Origin: Amanita rubescens
Lineage: Eukaryota > Basidiomycota > Agaricomycetes > Agaricales > Amanitaceae
DNA: 64,000 nucleotides
Reading direction: 5' to 3'
NCBI GenBank assembly: GCA_015039365.1
Contig: WION01000113.1
Location: forward strand, 1 to 64,000
This document shows positions 40,294 to 50,135 of the stretch, piece after piece. Position 1 is the first letter of the stretch, and every line of letters begins with the position of its first letter. The position numbers were made by a program, and so were the translations under genes. A model generated the notes under the pieces. It did no database searches. It was not told the origin of the DNA and saw only the letters and a program-made list of their open reading frames with translations.

Positions 40294-43200
40294 ATGCGTG
40301 CCCTTTTCCGCCCTTTTGCCCTCCATGCCGCCTACACTCCTATAGAAACAATCGTCTTCTTCGCCATCGTTGGCACATTAGCCTATTTCTACGTCCTCGG
40401 TGCAGTCAAACACTCGGCTTTCCTCGACCCTCCATACTCTCAACCACCAATTCTTGAACCTACCCATGCTCTCTTTAAGCACGGAGAGTGGGTCTCTATC
40501 ACAAACAAGTCGTGGAATACAGCCAGAACCGAGCGACGCGCTACCGTGTTGGAGCTGCAACAACTCCTCATTTCCCTCGACTTCAAGGCAAAGGAGGTAT
40601 GAAGGTCTACACGTGTAGTTTAATGGATCGAAGCTGACTGCGCATCCTACAGCCTGTTCCGGACCCCGTCACATTTTTGACGACGCCTCTTTCCGACTCG
40701 ACTCAGAACTTTACTACGCATCTCACCCAATCTTTCTCCGCCCGGTCCGGAAGCACCTATTCTTCAATTTGCCATCATACTACGGCCCTCGCTGGTGCTC
40801 CGCAATGTTTTCTTCACAGCCAGGCCGGTGAACGAACCATTGTCAAGACATTAGCGTTTAATCCAGGGTCGCGCGCGGAGTTCGCTGCCGCATTGGAGGA
40901 CAATGCAAAAAATTTCTGCGACAATGCTGGCACTAAATTTGAGGTTGTGTCTGGAGGGGCAGACACCATCCCGATACGCGAAATGAAAAGCAGTAAATGG
41001 ATGGCACATGCCGCAAAGGCCCTGGTCATTCGCTTTTGGGATCTAGCCAAGGTACGGGCTGGCTCCACCTACGCAATTTCCTCTACAATTGTCTTACTCT
41101 ATTGTCTACAGAAGGCCGACTCTCTTGATATCCTGCTTATCCTAATGGGCTATCTGCTGATGCACATCACGTTTTGGTTGCTCATCAAGCGCTCTCGGAA
41201 ACTAGGATCAAGCTTCTCCCTTCCCATTGCCATTCTTGCTTCCGCTGTTCTCGCACTTCTGCTGGCGCTCCCGATTGCCATGTTCCTCCGTATACCCATT
41301 GAACCCGTTGCGTTAACTGAGGCACTGCCATTTTTGGTCTGTACAGTCGGCTTTGACAAGCCGCTCCGCCTAGCACGGGCGGTCTTTTCGCACCAGCACC
41401 TTCTGACACCCATGTCCGTCTCGGCCTCGGGCCTGTCAACCCCCGGCGGAAGCCAGGTCATGAAGCCAGCGTCAAAAATCATCACAGAGTCTTTGACATT
41501 GGTATACCCTCCTATTATTAGGGACTACATCTTGGAGATCGCCGTACTCGTCATCGGAGCAAACAGCAAAGTCGGCGGCCTAAAGGAAGTTTGCGCTTTT
41601 GCTGCATTGTTGCTTGCCGTCGATTGTTTCCTTCTTTGTAGCTTCCTTGCGGCTATTCTTGGAGTGATGATTGAGGTTCGTTCCTGTCTTTTTGTCTTTG
41701 GTGGCAGTGCAATCACGAGACTCATCATCCCATCTCAGGTTCGCCGTATTAAGAATGTCCGGTCCTTGACGCAATCTCGCACGCCGACCATATCGCCCGC
41801 ATCAGGACGTCCTAGCGCCCTCGCTAGATCATCGGCGACAAATTTAGCAGCCCTCGCACAGGCTGCGGAAGTTCGACCCAAAACCTTGACTCACAGACTA
41901 TCCAGTGCACTCCTCGGTGTTAAAGGGGAGGCGCTGCCTTCGCACGGAAAAACAGCCTCCAAGGACAAGGTCACTAAGCAGGAAAATCCTGTTGCACGTT
42001 TGAAGCTACTCCTGGTACGCATTTATCTACCTGGGTCAACGCCGATGACTGATGGCATCTTAGATTGCATCATTTACCGTACTTCATATCCTGAATTTCA
42101 TTACACCACTTACCCAAGCCCCACATACCGATAATCGTAGCGCTGTCACTCGTAAGGTCGACATCACATCACCGCCTCTCCGTGCTGCTCTGTTTTCCCT
42201 TGCCACGACCGAGGCCACGTTGTCCGCCGAGGGCTCCGTCGTACCCAAGGATATTTTTGTCAAGGTCTCTCCTCCTATCTACGTTCGCGTCGTTCCTCCC
42301 TCTATCGTGTTCGTGAACGCTGCAACTACTTCTCCGAGACAGACACATCGCCAACACCGTTTGAAAGCAGCGGAGGCCAGGTTCAAGCGCCCTTCAGAGA
42401 TCATCGAAGATTTCATGTCTTCCTGGACGACACTTGTTGGCGATCCCATTTTGAGCAAATGGATCGTGGTGATGTTGGCCCTGAGTATCAGTTTGAACGG
42501 ATACCTCCTCAAGGGTCTTGCAGCTGGTCTGGGGTTCAACGGCGCGTTTGATGGGTTCCCAAAGAAGGGCGGGGTACGATTCGAAGGCGATGCCAATGAG
42601 GCTGATGTAGAGGACAAGGACAAGGCAGCACAGGGACAGCAGCATTATACCACAGACGTGGTGTTGGCCGCACCGCCTGTCAAGGCGACCAGAACCCAGA
42701 CTGCCACGGCCGTCGTGGAGAAGAAACGATCTGCGTTCCTCAGTCCTAAAGCTACTATTACTTCCACGTTCACGCTAGAGGATGTCGACCGCAAGCTGAA
42801 GGCACAACTAGCTTTGGCACCCGCGTCTCCCCCACTTCTCACACCATCATCTTCCCAAGGTAGCGAAGACACCGGCCCCCTGCAAGAAGCCCCCGTACGT
42901 ACATTGGCGGAGTGCGTAGATGTGTTTGAGAACGGGCCAAGACCGGTTAGCGAGAGCTTGGCGTTGTTGAACGACGAGGAAGTCATTCTGTTGACGCAGA
43001 CGGGCAAGATTGCTCCCTACGCCCTAGAAAAAATTATGGGACCCAATGCACTGGAGAGGGCTGTGAAGATTCGCAGGGCAATCATCTGTGAGTACGCGTT
43101 TTCGCTTGTATGTGTGATTTGCTGACAACGCGACAAGCTCGGGCCTCGTTGACAAAGACACTAGAAGCTTCCGACGTCCCATTCACTAGCTACGACTACT

Positions 43201-44446
43201 CTAGAGTGATCGGCGCCTGCTGCGAGAACGTCGTTGGATACATTCCTCTTCCTCTTGGTATTGCTGGTCCGCTCAAGATTGATGGCACCATGTACCCCAT
43301 TCCTATGGCCACAGCTGAAGGCACGCTAGTTGCGTCTACTTCTCGAGGATGCAAGGCATTGAATGCAGGAGGTGGCGTGACGACGGTGTTGACGCAGGAC
43401 GGTATGACGCGTGGCCCAGCAATCGATTTTCCGTCTATCACCGGAGCAGCTGAGGCCAAGGCCTGGATCGCTTCCGAGGAAGGATATGCCATCATGAAGC
43501 AGGCATTCGAGAGCACGTCTCGGTTTGCAAAACTAAGGTGCCTCAAGACGGCCATGGCAGGTCGGACGCTATTTGTTCGGTTTGCGACGGCTACTGGGGA
43601 TGCGATGGGTATGAACATGATCTCGAAAGGGACAGAAAAGGCGCTGGAGGTGATGGGCAAGCAGTTCCCTGATATGGTTGTGCTTGCTCTTTCGGGCAAC
43701 TATTGCACCGACAAAAAGCCTGCTGCCATTAACTGGATAGAGGGTAGAGGGAAGAGTATCGTTGCGGAGGCTGTGATCCCCGGCAAGATTGTCCAGACGG
43801 TGTTGAAGACGACGGTGGAGGCGTTATGTAATCTGAACGTGAAGAAAAACCTAATTGGAAGCGCGATGGCGGGTTCGGTAGGAGGGTTCAACGCGCATGC
43901 GGCGAACATCTTGACTGCAGTGTTTTTGGCAACGGGTCAGGACCCAGCGCAGAATGTGGAAAGTTCGAACTGTATAACGTTAATGGAGCCGTAAGTGATC
44001 ATCTTGATTTTCCTTGACCAATCGTTCATCTGAATTATTTAAACAGGACTAACAACGGCCAAGATCTTCTAATGTCTGTATCTATGCCTTCAATCGAAGT
44101 CGGTACCGTCGGCGGCGGAACCATTCTAGCACCTCAAGGCTCCGTTCTAGATATGCTCGGAATCAAAGGGCCCCACCCCTGTAATCCAGGAGCAAATGCT
44201 CAGCGGTTGGCGCGGATCATCGCCGCGGCCGTTATGGCGGGCGAGCTGTCGCTGATGAGCGCGTTGGCAGCAGGACACCTCGTCAGAGCCCATCTGGCAC
44301 ATAACAGGAGCCAGGTCAATACCCCTGTGGCATCGCGGCCGACGACGCCTGGCCCTCGCAGCGCGGGTACAGAATTGGCGAGCATACAGGCACAAGTGGC
44401 CGCTGCTGTTGGCGTCGCACCACCCTCAGATGACGGCAAGCAATAA
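40294..44446 (+). CDS. HMG1: 3-hydroxy-3-methylglutaryl-CoA reductase
   Basis: ER-membrane, NADPH-dependent, rate-limiting enzyme of the mevalonate pathway to ergosterol and terpenoids. ATG 40294 starts [20 protein letters not shown], a first membrane span. Spans at 41,100-41,700 form the sterol-sensing region ([60 protein letters not shown]). The catalytic domain is complete: [86 protein letters not shown] and [14 protein letters not shown]. The catalytic His is in [18 protein letters not shown]. Introns are at about 40600, 41050, 41672-41740, 42015-42150, 43088-43138 and 43993-44047. A Ser/Pro-rich linker precedes the catalytic part. Stop 44446. Confidence 0.95.
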
Positions 44447-44904
44447 AGAGGGTGTGTCCTCCTTTTCCATTCTCGTTTTTTGCCCACCTATTTTTTATTT
44501 TTTTTTAAAAAACACTTTCATTGCTTGATCTCCATGTAGCGTATACCCTTCTCGTCGTTAATTGCGCTCGGATTCTGTTTTGGAATTTGGAATGCCTGCT
44601 ACCGTGCTTTGATATACAACTTACCCTTATTCTTTTTTTGTTTATTGCGTAACGTAATTGGCGCTTTGTTACTGTACTTTATCTAGCACTATTGGCACAT
44701 TGCATTTGGCACACACTGCATTACTCTTATATATACATACTACATAGCATGTTGCATGTTATACTCGAAAATAAAAACATTTCATTGGTCAATTGATGAT
44801 GTGAAGGCTGTATACAACTTTTGCATCACATACAAGTTTGTGCACTGGGTCATGGTATTTACAATTTTAACTGAAGACAGATAGTGTGAAGCTGTACACT
44901 AAAA
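44447..44904. other. HMGR 3' flank, AT-rich
   Basis: AT-rich sequence with a T-rich run at about 44490-44510, presumably the HMGR 3' UTR and polyadenylation region. From about 44733 it contains the downstream copy of a repeat described separately. CpG becomes almost absent from about 44770 onward. Confidence 0.5.
44733..44797. repeat. direct repeat, copy A (3' flank of TPR fragment)
   Basis: Shares most bases with 45667-45730: both contain ATACATACTACATAGCATG, then TACTCGAAAATAAAAAC and TTTCAT followed by a CAATT-type end. It marks the downstream edge of a partial tandem duplication of the STAND/TPR gene. Confidence 0.8.
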
Positions 44905-45660
44905 TCATAGAAAGGAATCTGCCTTCCCTGATTTTTGTATGTATATTAATACCAGATTGTGCATGGTGCAGAGAGTATCTGGATGGTCTGATCCAAGCTT
45001 TGCTTTTATTGCATTCATCACCTTAACCTGGAGCTTCTCTGCTTCATCCCACCTTCCCTGATTCTGGTATGTTGATGCCAGATTGTCCATGGTGGAGAGA
45101 GTATATGGATGGTCTGATCCATGCTTTGCTTTTGTTGCATGAGTCATCACCTCCACATTCAGCTTCTTTGCCTCATTCTGACACCTTCCCTGATTCATGT
45201 ATGTTGCTGCCAGATTGCACTGGTGCATGGTGGTAAGAGTATCTGGGTGATCCAGTCCAAGCTTTGCTATTGTTGCATTCACCACCTCCACCTCAGCTTC
45301 TCTGCCTCATCCCACCTTCCCTGATTCCAGCATGTTGATGCCAGACTGGTCATGGTGTGGAAGATATCTGAATGATCTAATCCAAACTTTGCTCTTCTTG
45401 CATTCATCACCTTCACCGGCAGCTTCTCTGCATCACCCCACCTTCCCTGATTCAGGTATATTAATGCCAAATTGTGCAAGATGGTGAGAGTGTCTGGGTG
45501 TTCTAATCCAAGATTTGTCTTTCTCTATTCAGCCACAGCAAGTAACAGCTTCTCTTCCTCATTCCAGCTACCAATGCAATGAAAAACAAGTTCAAATCTG
45601 GCATATTCATCATCATAGTACCTTTTTTCCAACTGTAAATACAATCCACATGATATACTA
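44905..45660 (-). pseudogene. partial duplicate of the TPR gene (kinesin-light-chain-type repeats)
   Basis: Broken copy of the C-terminal part of the neighbouring STAND gene. Reading down the minus strand: KRYYDDEYARFELVFHCIGS then WNEEEKLLLAVAE, a stop, then TPR units in shifting frames (LALIYLNQGRWGDAEKLPVK, TYWNQGRWDEAEKL-type, LASTYQNQGRWDEAEKLQVK, LGSDHPDTLCTMHNLVLIYI). At least two frame changes and one stop interrupt it. There is no NB-ARC part. Like its parent it is almost free of CpG. Confidence 0.75.
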
Positions 45661-45666
45661 GCCCTA

Positions 45667-45730
45667 ATACATACTACATAGCATGTCACATGTTGTACTC
45701 GAAAATAAAAACTTTTCATCAATTAATTGA
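45667..45730. repeat. direct repeat, copy B (3' flank of STAND gene)
   Basis: Counterpart of the 44733-44797 copy. It lies between the STAND stop (45808) and the TPR fragment, as expected if one unit of gene 3' end plus flank was duplicated in tandem. Confidence 0.8.
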
Positions 45731-45807
45731 CATGAAGGGTGCACAAGTTGAAAACTCTTGTATGATATGCTGATGCTGTCCAGAATGCAGCAAAACATCA
45801 CAGCCAA

Positions 45808-48540
45808 TTATTCAAGGCTATTATCACTTTGCCTCCTAACACATTTATCAAGTTGCCATTCATAATAAACTGTAGTGGGATGTTGAGTTCCCATAACAGT
45901 TTGCATGGTTTCTACAGCCTGAGACAGCAAAAATTCTGCTTCACCCAACCTTCCCTGGCTTCTATATGTCAAAGCCAAGCTGGCCATTGTCTTCAAAGTG
46001 TCTGGATGATTTGTTCCAAGCTTTGCTTTTTTTGCATTCATCACCTCCAGCTGCAGTTTCTCTGCCTCATCCCACATTCCCTGATCCTGGTATGTTAATG
46101 CCAAACCATGCATGGTTTTGAGAGTATCTGGGTGGTCTGATCCAAGCTTTGCTTTCCTTGCATTCATCACCTCCACATGCAGCTTCTCTGCCTCATGCAA
46201 CCTTCCCTGATTCTGGTATGTTAATGCCAAACAATGCTTGGTGTTGAGAGTATTTAGGTTGTCTGATCCAAGCTTTGATTTTCTTGCATTCATCACCTCC
46301 AGCTGGAGTTTCTCTGCCTCATCCCACATTCCCTGATCCTGGTATGTTAATGCCAAATTATGCATGGTTTTGAGAGTGTCTGGGTGATCTGCCAATATAA
46401 GCTTTGCTTTTCTTGCATTTATCACCTCCACCTGAAGCTTCTCTGCCTCATCCCACCTTCCCTGATCCTGGTATGTTAATGCCAAATAGTGCATGGTGGT
46501 GAGTGTATTTGGGTGGTCTGATCCAAGCTTTTCTTTTCTTGCATTCATCACCTCCACCTGCAACTTCTCTGCCTCATCCCACCTTCCCTGATTCCAGTAT
46601 GTTGATGCCAAATTGTCCATGGTGGTGAGAGTATCTGGATGGTTTGATCCAAGCTTTGCTTTTCTTGTGTTCATTACCTCCACCTGCAGCTTCTCTGCCT
46701 CATCCCATCTTCCCTGGTTCCGGTATGCTACTGCCACATTGTGCATGGTGGTGAGAGTTCCTGGGTGGTCTAGTCCAAGAGTTGTCTTCTGCTCTTCAAT
46801 TGCAACAAGTAACAGCTTCTCTTCCTCATTCCAACTACCAATGTGATAAAAAACAAGTGCAAATCTGGCATATTCATCATCATAGTACCTGCTTCCCAGC
46901 TCTAAATTTAATCCATGTGAAGTATTTGCCCTAATGTGTGGTGCAAGAAGCTTGCAGAATGTATAGTTATCAATTTCCCAATCAAGGGCTACTGAACAGG
47001 ATAACAGTGCTCTTACTCTGTGATATTCATCACTTATCTCTCTCTTGGGTATGATGTGTCTGCTCCACTCATTTACTAACGGATGCATGGAGTATAGATG
47101 ATCAATGACCTTGATCAAAGAAAATGATAATAGAATTTTGATTCCATCCAGGAACTGCATTCTGTCCCACTCTCCTTTGTTCACAAGCAACATCTGATCA
47201 TCTAACAGTGTCACTGACAATGGTAAATTCAACTGTGCCTCCTGTACAAGATCTCTCTTTATATAATTTTCTGCTGCATTTTTGAATAATTCCTCAGGTA
47301 TATTCTCATGATTTAAAAAGGCAAAGATTCTTAGTAACCTCATTGCACATTGTGCTGCTTGAGCCTCTTCCCCAGTTCCTTTTCCAGCCATGCCCTCAAT
47401 CTGTTCTATTGAGATGTCCCATGTTCCATATGTAGATGTTCCATAACCAGATGCTCCCTTGAATCCTTTACTTGACATTAACTGATGCCTGTATTTTTTT
47501 ATTAGCTCAAGATAGCTACCAATGCTACAGCCACAGTTTTGCATGTATGCTCCAGCTTGATCAACAGCAAGTGGTATTCCACCCAATTCTGATATCACAT
47601 TTTTGGCCATATTTGTTATATGGTCAGATGTGCCATCAAGCATAGCTGACTTCAATAACAACTGAACAGCCTCATCATCTCCCATGTCAAGAACATTCAC
47701 TGAGTCCAATGCCAGCCTTTGCAATCCCACATTCCTACTTGTAATCAAGATATTGCCTCCATTCCCTGGTGGAAGGAACTTTTCAACCACTGAATAATGC
47801 CCATCTGCACTATCATATACCATGAGCCATCTAGATTTCTGAGCAATCCATTTGAGAGCAGATTGAGAAGATTTTGTTGCCTCTTTTGGTGCATTGTTAG
47901 CCAGAGCTATCTGCATTAGTCCAACTTCAATAATAGCATCTGAAGAACTATGAAGCCAAAATATCTCAGAAAACCTGAGACAAGTTGTTCACCTTAAATG
48001 AGTATTATACCATAATTCACATACTCACAAATCAAAATTTTGTTCAATGAATTTCAAGCATATCTGAGTTTTTCCAATACCTCCCATACCATGCAACAGG
48101 AATGACTTCCTTTGGCCTTCCACCTGGGAGCTGAAATGGTCCTTCAATCTTTGCAAGTATTTAACTCTGCCTGTGAAGAATGTACTAGAATGTTTCAGGG
48201 GTGCTAGAGGAGGTAAAGTTGTCTCAGGAGGAGTGAGGTTAAGGTTGATGAAGTTGTTTGTTATCTATGGGTTAGGGTTATTGGTATGTTGTAGACAATG
48301 CTTAAACACAATAACCTCTGTAAATTGAGCATCTTTCATAAGGATGTTGTGTACCCCAGGAAAAAAATGGTTTGTAGCCTCTTGAGGGTTACAGTCCATC
48401 ATACCAGTTACAGTGCAACTAGAAAGGGATAAGGGTATTATAGAGGTGTTGTGGAGGTTAAGATGAAGCTTACCTGATAGTAGTGTTTTGAATTGGTCGA
48501 GAACTTGAATGATCTCGTTAAGTGGGTGGACAGTCATCAT
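45808..48540 (-). CDS. NB-ARC/TPR STAND (NLR-like) protein
   Basis: Fungal NLR-like STAND ATPase; relatives take part in non-self recognition and programmed cell death, but its own role is unknown. Candidate start MMTVHPLNEIIQVLDQF at 48540. The exon FFPGVHNILMKDAQFTEV resembles the short segment before the NTPase in agaric STAND proteins. NB-ARC: TFFTGRVKYLQRLKDHF, Walker A LHGMGGIGKTQICLKFIEQN, an intron (GTGAGT...CTCAG at about 48029-47976), Walker B WLMVYDSADG, ILITSRN and GGIPLAVDQAGAYMQ. The C-terminus has seven kinesin-light-chain TPR units of 42-43 residues (e.g. HPDTLTTMDNLASTYWNQGR, WDEAEKLQVEVMNARK). An in-frame TAG at about 48267 lies before the NB-ARC part, probably the AG of a short intron. 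CpG is nearly absent from this gene except in its first exon. Confidence 0.8.
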
Positions 48541-50135
48541 AGTAGGAAGCGATGTCGGGTTGAAATGACTAACCTGGCGAAGCCACGAAGGGAGGACTGA
48601 TGGAACTTGTAGCAGGTGAGTACTAGCAGAGGAAGTGACGGAGAGCGAGGAGAGGTTGACGCAGAGTTGACTTTCAGCTTGGTGGCAGAAACATTCTACA
48701 CTGTGCGTTTCTGAATCGGATCGATTTCAAAGTTGGCTGGGGTTATTTGGCCCTTTCAATAGTTTGGCTCGGGAGTTACCGGCGTGAACGTGTCAGTTGT
48801 GGGCCACTGCTTCGCGTGGCAGGGTCCAAGGCCAGCCTGCGCTATCGGTCATATAGCAGCTCAGGCATTGGTCATAGGAGGCGAGGGCGAACGACAACGA
48901 TATTGTTGGCCAATCTCGCGTGACCGTCGCGCTGGCTGCTGTCCGACCTCGTGTATCGCCGCTGCTTAAGCAGTACTAGATGTCCCGTCCTTTTAGCCGA
49001 CGTCGGCCAATAGAAGTCACACTGATGGAAGACTGGAAGGCTTCAGAGAGCGAGTCTGCGAGTAACATCAACAAGGCTGACCAATGTCTCGATGTCGTGG
49101 TGAGTTCCGAGTCGTGCCTTAGCTATACTAGTTCCCAACAACCGCCTACTATCGACTGCCACACAGCGCTTAGTGTCCGACTCCGAAGCAGTACTTTATT
49201 GTCATCTATGCTCTATTAGTATGTGCTTACCGCTCAAGGCCGCAGCACCGTCCTGCTGCATTGCATATTGAGCGATTAGGGCGGTCCACTGCATATCTTT
49301 ACCGTTATCAATGGTCCGTCCGAAACAAACTCAAGCGTTATTGACATTTTATTGAAGTAATATTTTTTATGAAGGTCCTATATCACGCCCTCGGTAACAA
49401 CGTCGGACCAGAAAAATAAAAATGGACATACCACGCACGGCGCAAACGAACTCTTCTAGCTCCGCACTTGTAAAACAAGAAAGGGGAGGTATAGTTATTT
49501 TCGCCTCTGATGCTTCCGAAGTGCGGTGCAAATTCCGCTTGATCACTTTTGACGCCCTTGCAGGTATCGGAACCTAGACGGCGCCGAACAATATAGAGCG
49601 CATGTAATCTAGAATGAATTGTGTGTCTCAGGCCTAGCATCTGACCTCGTCATGCTAAATAAGCGATTCAGCTGCCAGTGCAGGGTATTCATCGATCCAC
49701 TCAATTCTGATTAGAATACTGAACAAACTCTCGCAAGATTCTAATCAATTCACCATTGAAATGTGTCGAGCAGTACAAACGTCATAGTCATGTTCTTCCA
49801 ACACCAACTGCCCTGAGATGGCGTGCAGGATTCATCACAACGCAACACATGGACCTCAACTGAAAAAGCCATCAAGTTACTTAGTATATGTGAGTGTCGA
49901 AATGCGACCTGATCGCTCATGCGGTTTACGTTGAGTACTTAAGGTTACCCGAATAATCAATGTCGTACGTTTTACATCCTCCTGGATTCGCGCGCGCAGG
50001 GACAGCCGGACAGGATAACGTTAGCAGAGACTCTGGTTTGAGCCACATATTACTAAGACAGCTCAATCCTGGCATTTATAAATGCCTTCGCCGAGTGGCT
50101 CGTTGCGTTATCGATCACCTCGAGCCTCCCCAGCC
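48541..50135. other. intergenic
   Basis: CpG-normal sequence. The frame of the STAND first exon stays open on the minus strand to about 48727 without an ATG (possible 5' UTR or an upstream exon; includes LLQVPSVLPSWLRQ). Beyond that, no gene or RNA is recognised up to the monooxygenase start. Confidence 0.45.

Follow-up and report, generated by a model that had tools for sequence, protein, structure and literature searches.

How a fungal gene can lose nearly all of its CpG dinucleotides and still keep its protein is the question raised by a 64,000-nucleotide stretch of Amanita rubescens DNA (GenBank assembly GCA_015039365.1, contig WION01000113.1, positions 1 to 64,000), referred to here as the window. 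Based on profile matches, the minus strand of the window encodes an NB-ARC-TPR protein, and a preliminary description of the sequence had noticed that this gene lies in a CpG desert. In our judgement the desert is quite probably the mutational footprint of long-lasting, heritable CG methylation over the bodies of genes resembling NOD-like receptors (NLR-like genes), with promoters spared and deamination following.

CpG depletion in the window

The desert covers 3731 bp, from 44767 to 48497, and holds only four CpGs (45417, 45700, 46721 and 47080), compared to 157 expected from its own base composition and 218 if it had the CpG rate found elsewhere in the window; the nearest CpG before it is at 44766 and the nearest after it at 48498. 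The features concerned are:

44767..48497, no strand: CpG desert by CpG count, 4 CpGs
45808..47916, minus strand: main open frame, 702 amino acids from ATG and 726 from stop to stop, with part of the NB-ARC domain and the TPR array; 2 CpGs
47917..48473, minus strand: upstream exons with a GMGGIGKT-type P-loop, plus introns, of the NB-ARC-TPR gene, after the allelic model P0002; CpG-free
48474..48540, minus strand: exon 1 (MMTVHPLNEIIQVLDQFKT...), closing at a GTAAGC donor (predicted, in agreement with the allelic NCBI model)
48498..48997, no strand: promoter side, CpG-normal, observed-to-expected ratio (o/e) 0.99
44919..45843, minus strand: stretch holding a partial TPR duplicate, with broken frames and 2 CpGs

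The CpG o/e was 0.03 in the desert vs 1.01 in the rest of the window, with TpG at 1.61 vs 1.11 and CpA at 1.48 vs 1.08. The reverse dinucleotide GpC was unaffected (1.12 in the desert vs 1.01 outside). TpA was low and CpA in excess, so the loss does not have the classical ascomycete form of repeat-induced point mutation (RIP), a CpA-biased change of C to T. Among the 64 bins of 1 kb in the window, those starting at 45001, 46001 and 47001 had a CpG o/e of 0.02-0.05, the next lowest being 0.66. All parts of the region were depleted, with a CpG o/e of 0.05 in the 3' flank and duplicated fragment (44767-45807), 0.02 in the long exon (45808-47916) and 0.00 in the 5' exons and introns (47917-48497). 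The preliminary description had counted two CGs between 45781 and 48497, and these are exactly 46721 and 47080 (o/e 0.017). It had also stated that the desert spans the gene, its introns and its duplicate and ends sharply at the first exon; the values by part agree with this, and the edge, at 48498, precedes the exon 1 donor by 25 bp, the next 500 bp being CpG-normal. The windowed CpG ratios and the TpG/CpA excess that it had proposed as checks came out as expected under methylation and deamination. When the 726-codon frame was recoded with synonymous codons, at the usage seen in nine long open reading frames outside the desert that have a CpG o/e of 0.72-1.11, it held 111 ± 8 CpGs (minimum 81 in 2000) vs the two observed, and the protein sequence is therefore no explanation of the depletion.

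The frame in the window carries a C-terminal TPR array (TPR_12, 2.5e-86; TPR_10, 3.6e-86). The other haplotype, contig C101, is 98% identical over the gene and has the NCBI model P0002 (858 amino acids, marked partial, starting MMTVHPLNEIIQVLDQF), in which NB-ARC was matched at 2.7e-10 and from whose start exon 1 was set at 48540-48474 in the window. No N-terminal effector domain was recognised and there was no best stretch before residue 85 of P0002, for which reason we call the gene NLR-like and not a tripartite NLR. By its predicted domains the window gene is a STAND NTPase of the NB-ARC-TPR type. P0002 also scored above the cut-off for the NCBIfam family FxSxx_TPR (NF040586), a bacterial TPR family (378 vs 300 bits).

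Copies of the gene and position of the desert edges

A DNA search of the genome gave at least 98 matching pieces (40 of 259 candidates scored). Twenty of 32 loci were measured, some of them still haplotype pairs, and 12 were omitted as redundant (haplotypes, overlaps and the flank hit L020). The CpG o/e across the matched body was 0.009-0.070 in all 20 loci, and the depletion is thus common to the other STAND/TPR copies that the preliminary description had suggested for comparison. The 600 bp located 5' of the desert had a CpG o/e of 0.78-1.21 in 19 of the 20 loci, the exception being the split copy L011 (0.43).

Edges were mapped by a two-state model of CpG density, which placed the edge in the window at 48498. 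In the 19 loci other than L011, which all carry a GMGGIGKT-type P-loop (19/19), the 5' edge was found 392 ± 60 bp (241-461) ahead of the P-loop. In 11 of these loci a pattern search predicted a splice donor, 9-75 bp past the edge; in L007 and L016 an AGGTAA missed by the pattern lies within about 60 bp, and in six of the 19 no donor pattern was found downstream of the edge. On the 3' side the desert extends 290-1147 bp beyond the stop of the long frame (10 loci with the 3' edge inside the locus).

Homology between paralogs reaches past the edge, into the CpG-normal DNA upstream, in L007/L008 (75-85%) and L014/L018 (72%), and also in L003/L006 and L013/L014, which are possible alleles and were not counted. 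In L026, L030 and L032 the desert begins ahead of detectable homology. Whether homology continues beyond the edge or the desert starts ahead of homology, the limit of the repeat is not what fixes the edge in those loci. It is the gene start, and not merely the reach of the repeat, that determines the 5' edge: with gene starts as predicted, the footprint begins inside the gene and the start region is spared, as in gene-body methylation. A duplication boundary as the cause of the edge was rejected for L007/L008 and L014/L018, where homology runs on upstream.

Other gene classes

Stretches of 500-900 bp at family matches were sampled from other classes and called depleted at a CpG o/e below 0.2; the samples were non-random, mostly the tops of the lists with obvious duplicates avoided. 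Depletion was found in 18 of 20 NB-ARC samples (126 matches listed), 8 of 8 for TPR_12 and 9 of 10 for ankyrin. It was found in 0 of 20 for NACHT (88 matches), 0 of 20 for P450 (122 matches), 0 of 20 for reverse transcriptase (RVT; range 0.97-1.53, at least 150 matches, 150 scored of 525 candidates) and 1 of 10 for WD40. The two NB-ARC exceptions, L044 and L047, differ in P-loop sequence. The sequence ahead of three ankyrin genes was likewise CpG-free (o/e 0.03-0.07); in the one of them that was scanned, L145, an NPHP3_N (NACHT-like) domain precedes the ankyrin repeats, and the other two look alike by eye. NPHP3_N was also present in two spared NACHT genes that were scanned. As this domain occurs in depleted and in spared genes, depletion tracks the gene class and not the domain type or repetitiveness. 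In these genome-wide samples it is a property of two NLR-like classes, NB-ARC-TPR and NACHT-ANK.

Repeat copy number alone was rejected as a cause, the sampled RVT and WD40 stretches having retained CpG. The WD40 exception L130 (G000:C91:56000-56700) had an o/e of 0.19 and the other nine samples 0.65-1.15. The ankyrin exception L118 (G000:C100:37900-38600) retained its CpGs (o/e 0.83, GC content 0.57). Five NACHT genes, L056-L060, showed an intermediate CpG o/e of 0.56-0.83 with TpG raised, and CpA too in most, as if weakly or early methylated. The RVT stretches, L096-L115, had a GpC o/e of 0.47-0.97 beside their high CpG o/e, the reverse of what is expected for old methylated repeats.

These samples bear on a RIP-like process, in which homology would trigger CpG mutation of repeats in the sexual phase with no standing methylation, and which we regard as conceivable but unlikely. 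The depleted genes do belong to families that are large and repeated and whose members carry TPR or ankyrin units in tandem, and CpG-biased C-to-T hypermutation has been reported in Tricholoma matsutake (PMC6980582), in Rhizoctonia solani AG8, genes included (PMC4014442), and in transposons of Microbotryum and, weakly, two rusts (PMC4352252). However, repeated DNA was not hit irrespective of gene class, as the sampled high-copy reverse transcriptases, the sampled NACHT genes and nine of ten repeat-rich WD40 samples keep their CpGs, and the 5' edge keeps to the gene start also in loci whose homology with a paralog extends further upstream. The long frames and low dN/dS described below also argue against it.

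Protein constraint and course of the loss

The main frame in the window is open, and a frame of at least 700 amino acids was present in the gene sense in 28 of 29 loci (734 in each of L023 and L024), L030 having 426. In the nucleotide-binding (NB) region, the only part compared, the ratio of nonsynonymous to synonymous substitution (dN/dS) had a median of 0.26 and quartiles of 0.24-0.29 over 134 of 136 non-independent pairs (428 codons, 17 loci), the two pairs whose dS did not exceed 0.02 (dN/dS 0.09 and 0.79) being excluded. The earlier impression that the frame is not obviously lost was thus correct, and the NB region is under purifying selection.

Long open frames and a dN/dS near 0.26 argue against long-dead genes, and so against ordinary repeat silencing, by which dead or silent repeats would lie in methylated heterochromatin and their NLR-like identity would be incidental. 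Gene-body methylation in Pleurotus is reported to correlate negatively with expression (PMC5974365), which speaks for silencing. It nevertheless seems improbable here, since in 19 of 20 loci the desert is immediately preceded on its 5' side by CpG-normal DNA, and other multicopy classes are spared. Conditional silence of the desert genes would merge with the methylation of gene bodies that we prefer.

Loss still in progress was assessed in pairs drawn from the 29 loci by a fixed rule: identical copies were removed, the best matches were taken first without using any locus twice, and an identity of at least 0.90 over the desert was required. This gave six pairs: L006/L011, L027/L028, L016/L017, L013/L014, L018/L019 and L009/L010. 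Desert CpGs were retained in 14 of 25 cases vs 926 of 1016 for desert GpC (p = 6e-6) and 545 of 593 for CpG in the flanks (p = 4e-6), and 10 of the 11 lost desert CpGs had changed to TpG or CpA. Seven near-identical pairs retained all CpGs. In 216 heavily overlapping pairs below 0.90 identity, 4 of 1577 CpGs were shared vs 18565 of 44174 GpCs.

Independent loss in each paralog should leave many sites at which one copy reads TpG and the other CpA. Compared with L009, 11 paralogs at 71-80% identity had 4-14 such sites per 1.5-1.7 kb (background of GpT against ApC, 2-6), and four paralogs at 89-90% had 2-7 (background 1). Taking every pair with less than 95% identity, discordance of this kind was 3.8% vs 1.1-2.2% for other double transitions (CpG against TpA, which involves the lost pair, 0.13%). 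Fully independent loss would give an estimated 35 or so sites, from about 42 CpG per kb by composition. As the observed numbers are well below this, most of the CpG loss appears to be older than the split of the NB-ARC-TPR paralogs (dS up to 1.1 vs L009), with a continuing trickle since; selection on the protein may mask some of the discordance.

Selection against CpG in transcripts or codons, acting without methylation, would agree with the nearly exclusive use of AGR for arginine in the family frames (29 AGR vs 1 CGN in the window frame). We consider it very improbable, because introns, 3' flank and broken duplicate are as depleted as the exons and all three codon phases are hit (28, 14 and 10 of the 52 CpGs left in 17 frames totalling 16151 codons). 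Lateral transfer of the families from a CpG-poor donor, never re-equilibrated, could account for their lower GC content (0.41-0.44 vs 0.48 for the whole window) and is hardly credible, given that residual CpGs are being lost now, that 19 loci have the edge in a similar place relative to the gene, and that a synonymous divergence of up to about 1.1 vs the window gene would restore CpGs without continued loss. A viral origin was also considered and rejected, one scan of viral contigs having found no relative.

Methylation genes and proposed mechanism

Three loci in the genome matched the methyltransferase family PF00145. L033 is DNMT1-like (best match to a DNMT1 chain 2.7e-16, BAH match below cut-off). 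L034 is of the DNMT5 type and matches chain 7r76 at 4.2e-71; this chain is labelled Rad8, and we take it to be Dnmt5 of Cryptococcus. L035, a weak match, is presumably DNMT2-like by its motif. A search for the replication-focus domain gave no match anywhere, the controls likewise being without a match, and a TET/JBP search of the genome gave four matches, all under the family cut-off. DNMT1-RFD together with DNMT5 is described as the basidiomycete toolkit, with a strong CpG preference (PMC13297926). L033 and L034 are present as CG methyltransferase genes of predicted activity.

The decay of CpG under methylation is textbook knowledge, and CpG-only loss with TpG/CpA excess in coding, intronic and 3' flanking DNA fits methylation followed by deamination. 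In the mechanism that we propose, methylated cytosines in the gene body would deaminate to thymine, turning CpG into TpG or CpA. The methylated state would be heritable in whole NLR-like classes (NB-ARC-TPR and NACHT-ANK) and passed on at duplication. It would exist in the germline and start near the end of exon 1, so that the promoter and most of exon 1 are protected, and it would reach beyond the stop codon while purifying selection preserves the protein. Upkeep would likely fall to the DNMT1- and DNMT5-type maintenance enzymes. As to purpose, we can only guess at damping or insulating dangerous receptors, or limiting recombination between repeats, with the promoter left usable. The preliminary description had called the desert a mark of methylation and deamination; CpG-only loss, TpG/CpA excess, ongoing loss and the DNMT1- and DNMT5-type genes all support this.

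Several points weigh against methylation as the cause. Cytosine methylation itself we infer from the footprint. Methylation gives no explanation for the sparing of the sampled kind of NACHT genes, or of WD40 genes, whose repeats are similar. In fungi it is usually directed at repeats, and CpG loss is absent from the sampled reverse transcriptases, although these may just be young copies. In the six pairs, CpG in the flanks was retained slightly less than GpC in the flanks (545/593 vs 634/671, p = 0.07), the comparison has only 25 residual CpGs in the deserts, and none was lost in two of the pairs (2/2 and 3/3). The 19 edge loci include haplotype pairs and so represent fewer genes, and several loci, having no detected homology in common ahead of the edge, give no support for homology running beyond it.

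Comparison with known systems

In Coprinopsis cinerea, 5-hydroxymethylcytosine (5hmC) and 5-methylcytosine are described on multicopy paralogous genes, called non-expressed (PMC8889193). A. rubescens would similarly be an Agaricales mushroom with multicopy gene families, and not transposons alone, as targets of cytosine modification. In contrast to C. cinerea, two NLR-like classes are almost CpG-free, constrained and bounded at exon 1, and the other multicopy classes sampled are spared. The CpG-to-TpG bias is shared with the RIP-like hypermutation of the basidiomycetes cited above, which affects repeats and, in R. solani, genes. As reported, those cases are partial biases, in transposons or genome-wide between nuclei, whereas the loss in A. 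rubescens is near-complete, class-bound and absent from the sampled reverse transcriptases.

Clear gene-body methylation is reported for two ascomycetes, U. reesii and M. robertsii (PMC7862722), and fungi are described as otherwise largely without it (PMC13297926, PMC7862722). As in plant and animal gene-body methylation, the footprint in A. rubescens is CG-only and covers the gene body with the start region spared; unlike there, it runs 290-1147 bp past the long-frame stop and marks receptor-like families. In Podospora, internally repeated NLRs show concerted evolution and RIP, the latter suggested to hypermutate the repeat region (PMC4986451). In both fungi NLRs with TPR, ANK or WD repeats would thus be exposed to a repeat-directed mutational process, but in A. 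rubescens the CpG loss extends across the NB domain, introns and 3' flank, and nine of ten WD40 samples are spared. Expanded NLR genes of plants are reported to be hypermethylated, with non-CG methylation (PMC10271904). A. rubescens would share the excess of DNA methylation on expanded NLR families, its putative methylation differing in leaving a CG footprint.

CpG decay under methylation, 5hmC on Coprinopsis paralogs and gene-body methylation in two ascomycetes were thus known already; of the near-total, class-specific, exon-1-bounded and selectively constrained form we found no earlier report in the literature searched, subscription journals being mostly outside reach. If methylated, these genes offer a natural test of how CG methylation targets and persists on particular fungal coding genes, and of whether such methylation protects receptor genes, mutates them or regulates them. 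Gene-body methylation has been suggested to be largely lost in fungi for its mutational cost, with some exceptions (PMC13297926). In the desert genes this cost appears fully paid, the CpGs being gone and the proteins still constrained, and together with the excess methylation of plant NLRs (PMC10271904) a shared logic across kingdoms becomes testable.

Neighbouring sequence

Over 44922-45668 the partial TPR duplicate shares 80% identity with the main copy. The stretch that holds it, 44919-45843, is unmatched in haplotype C101, where 176 bp stand in its place, and is a structural polymorphism at the NLR-like gene, present in the window haplotype. The neighbouring gene at 40677-44447, which we take to be HMG-CoA-reductase-like by its motifs, is convergent and CpG-normal, and the desert starts at 44767, past its 3' end.

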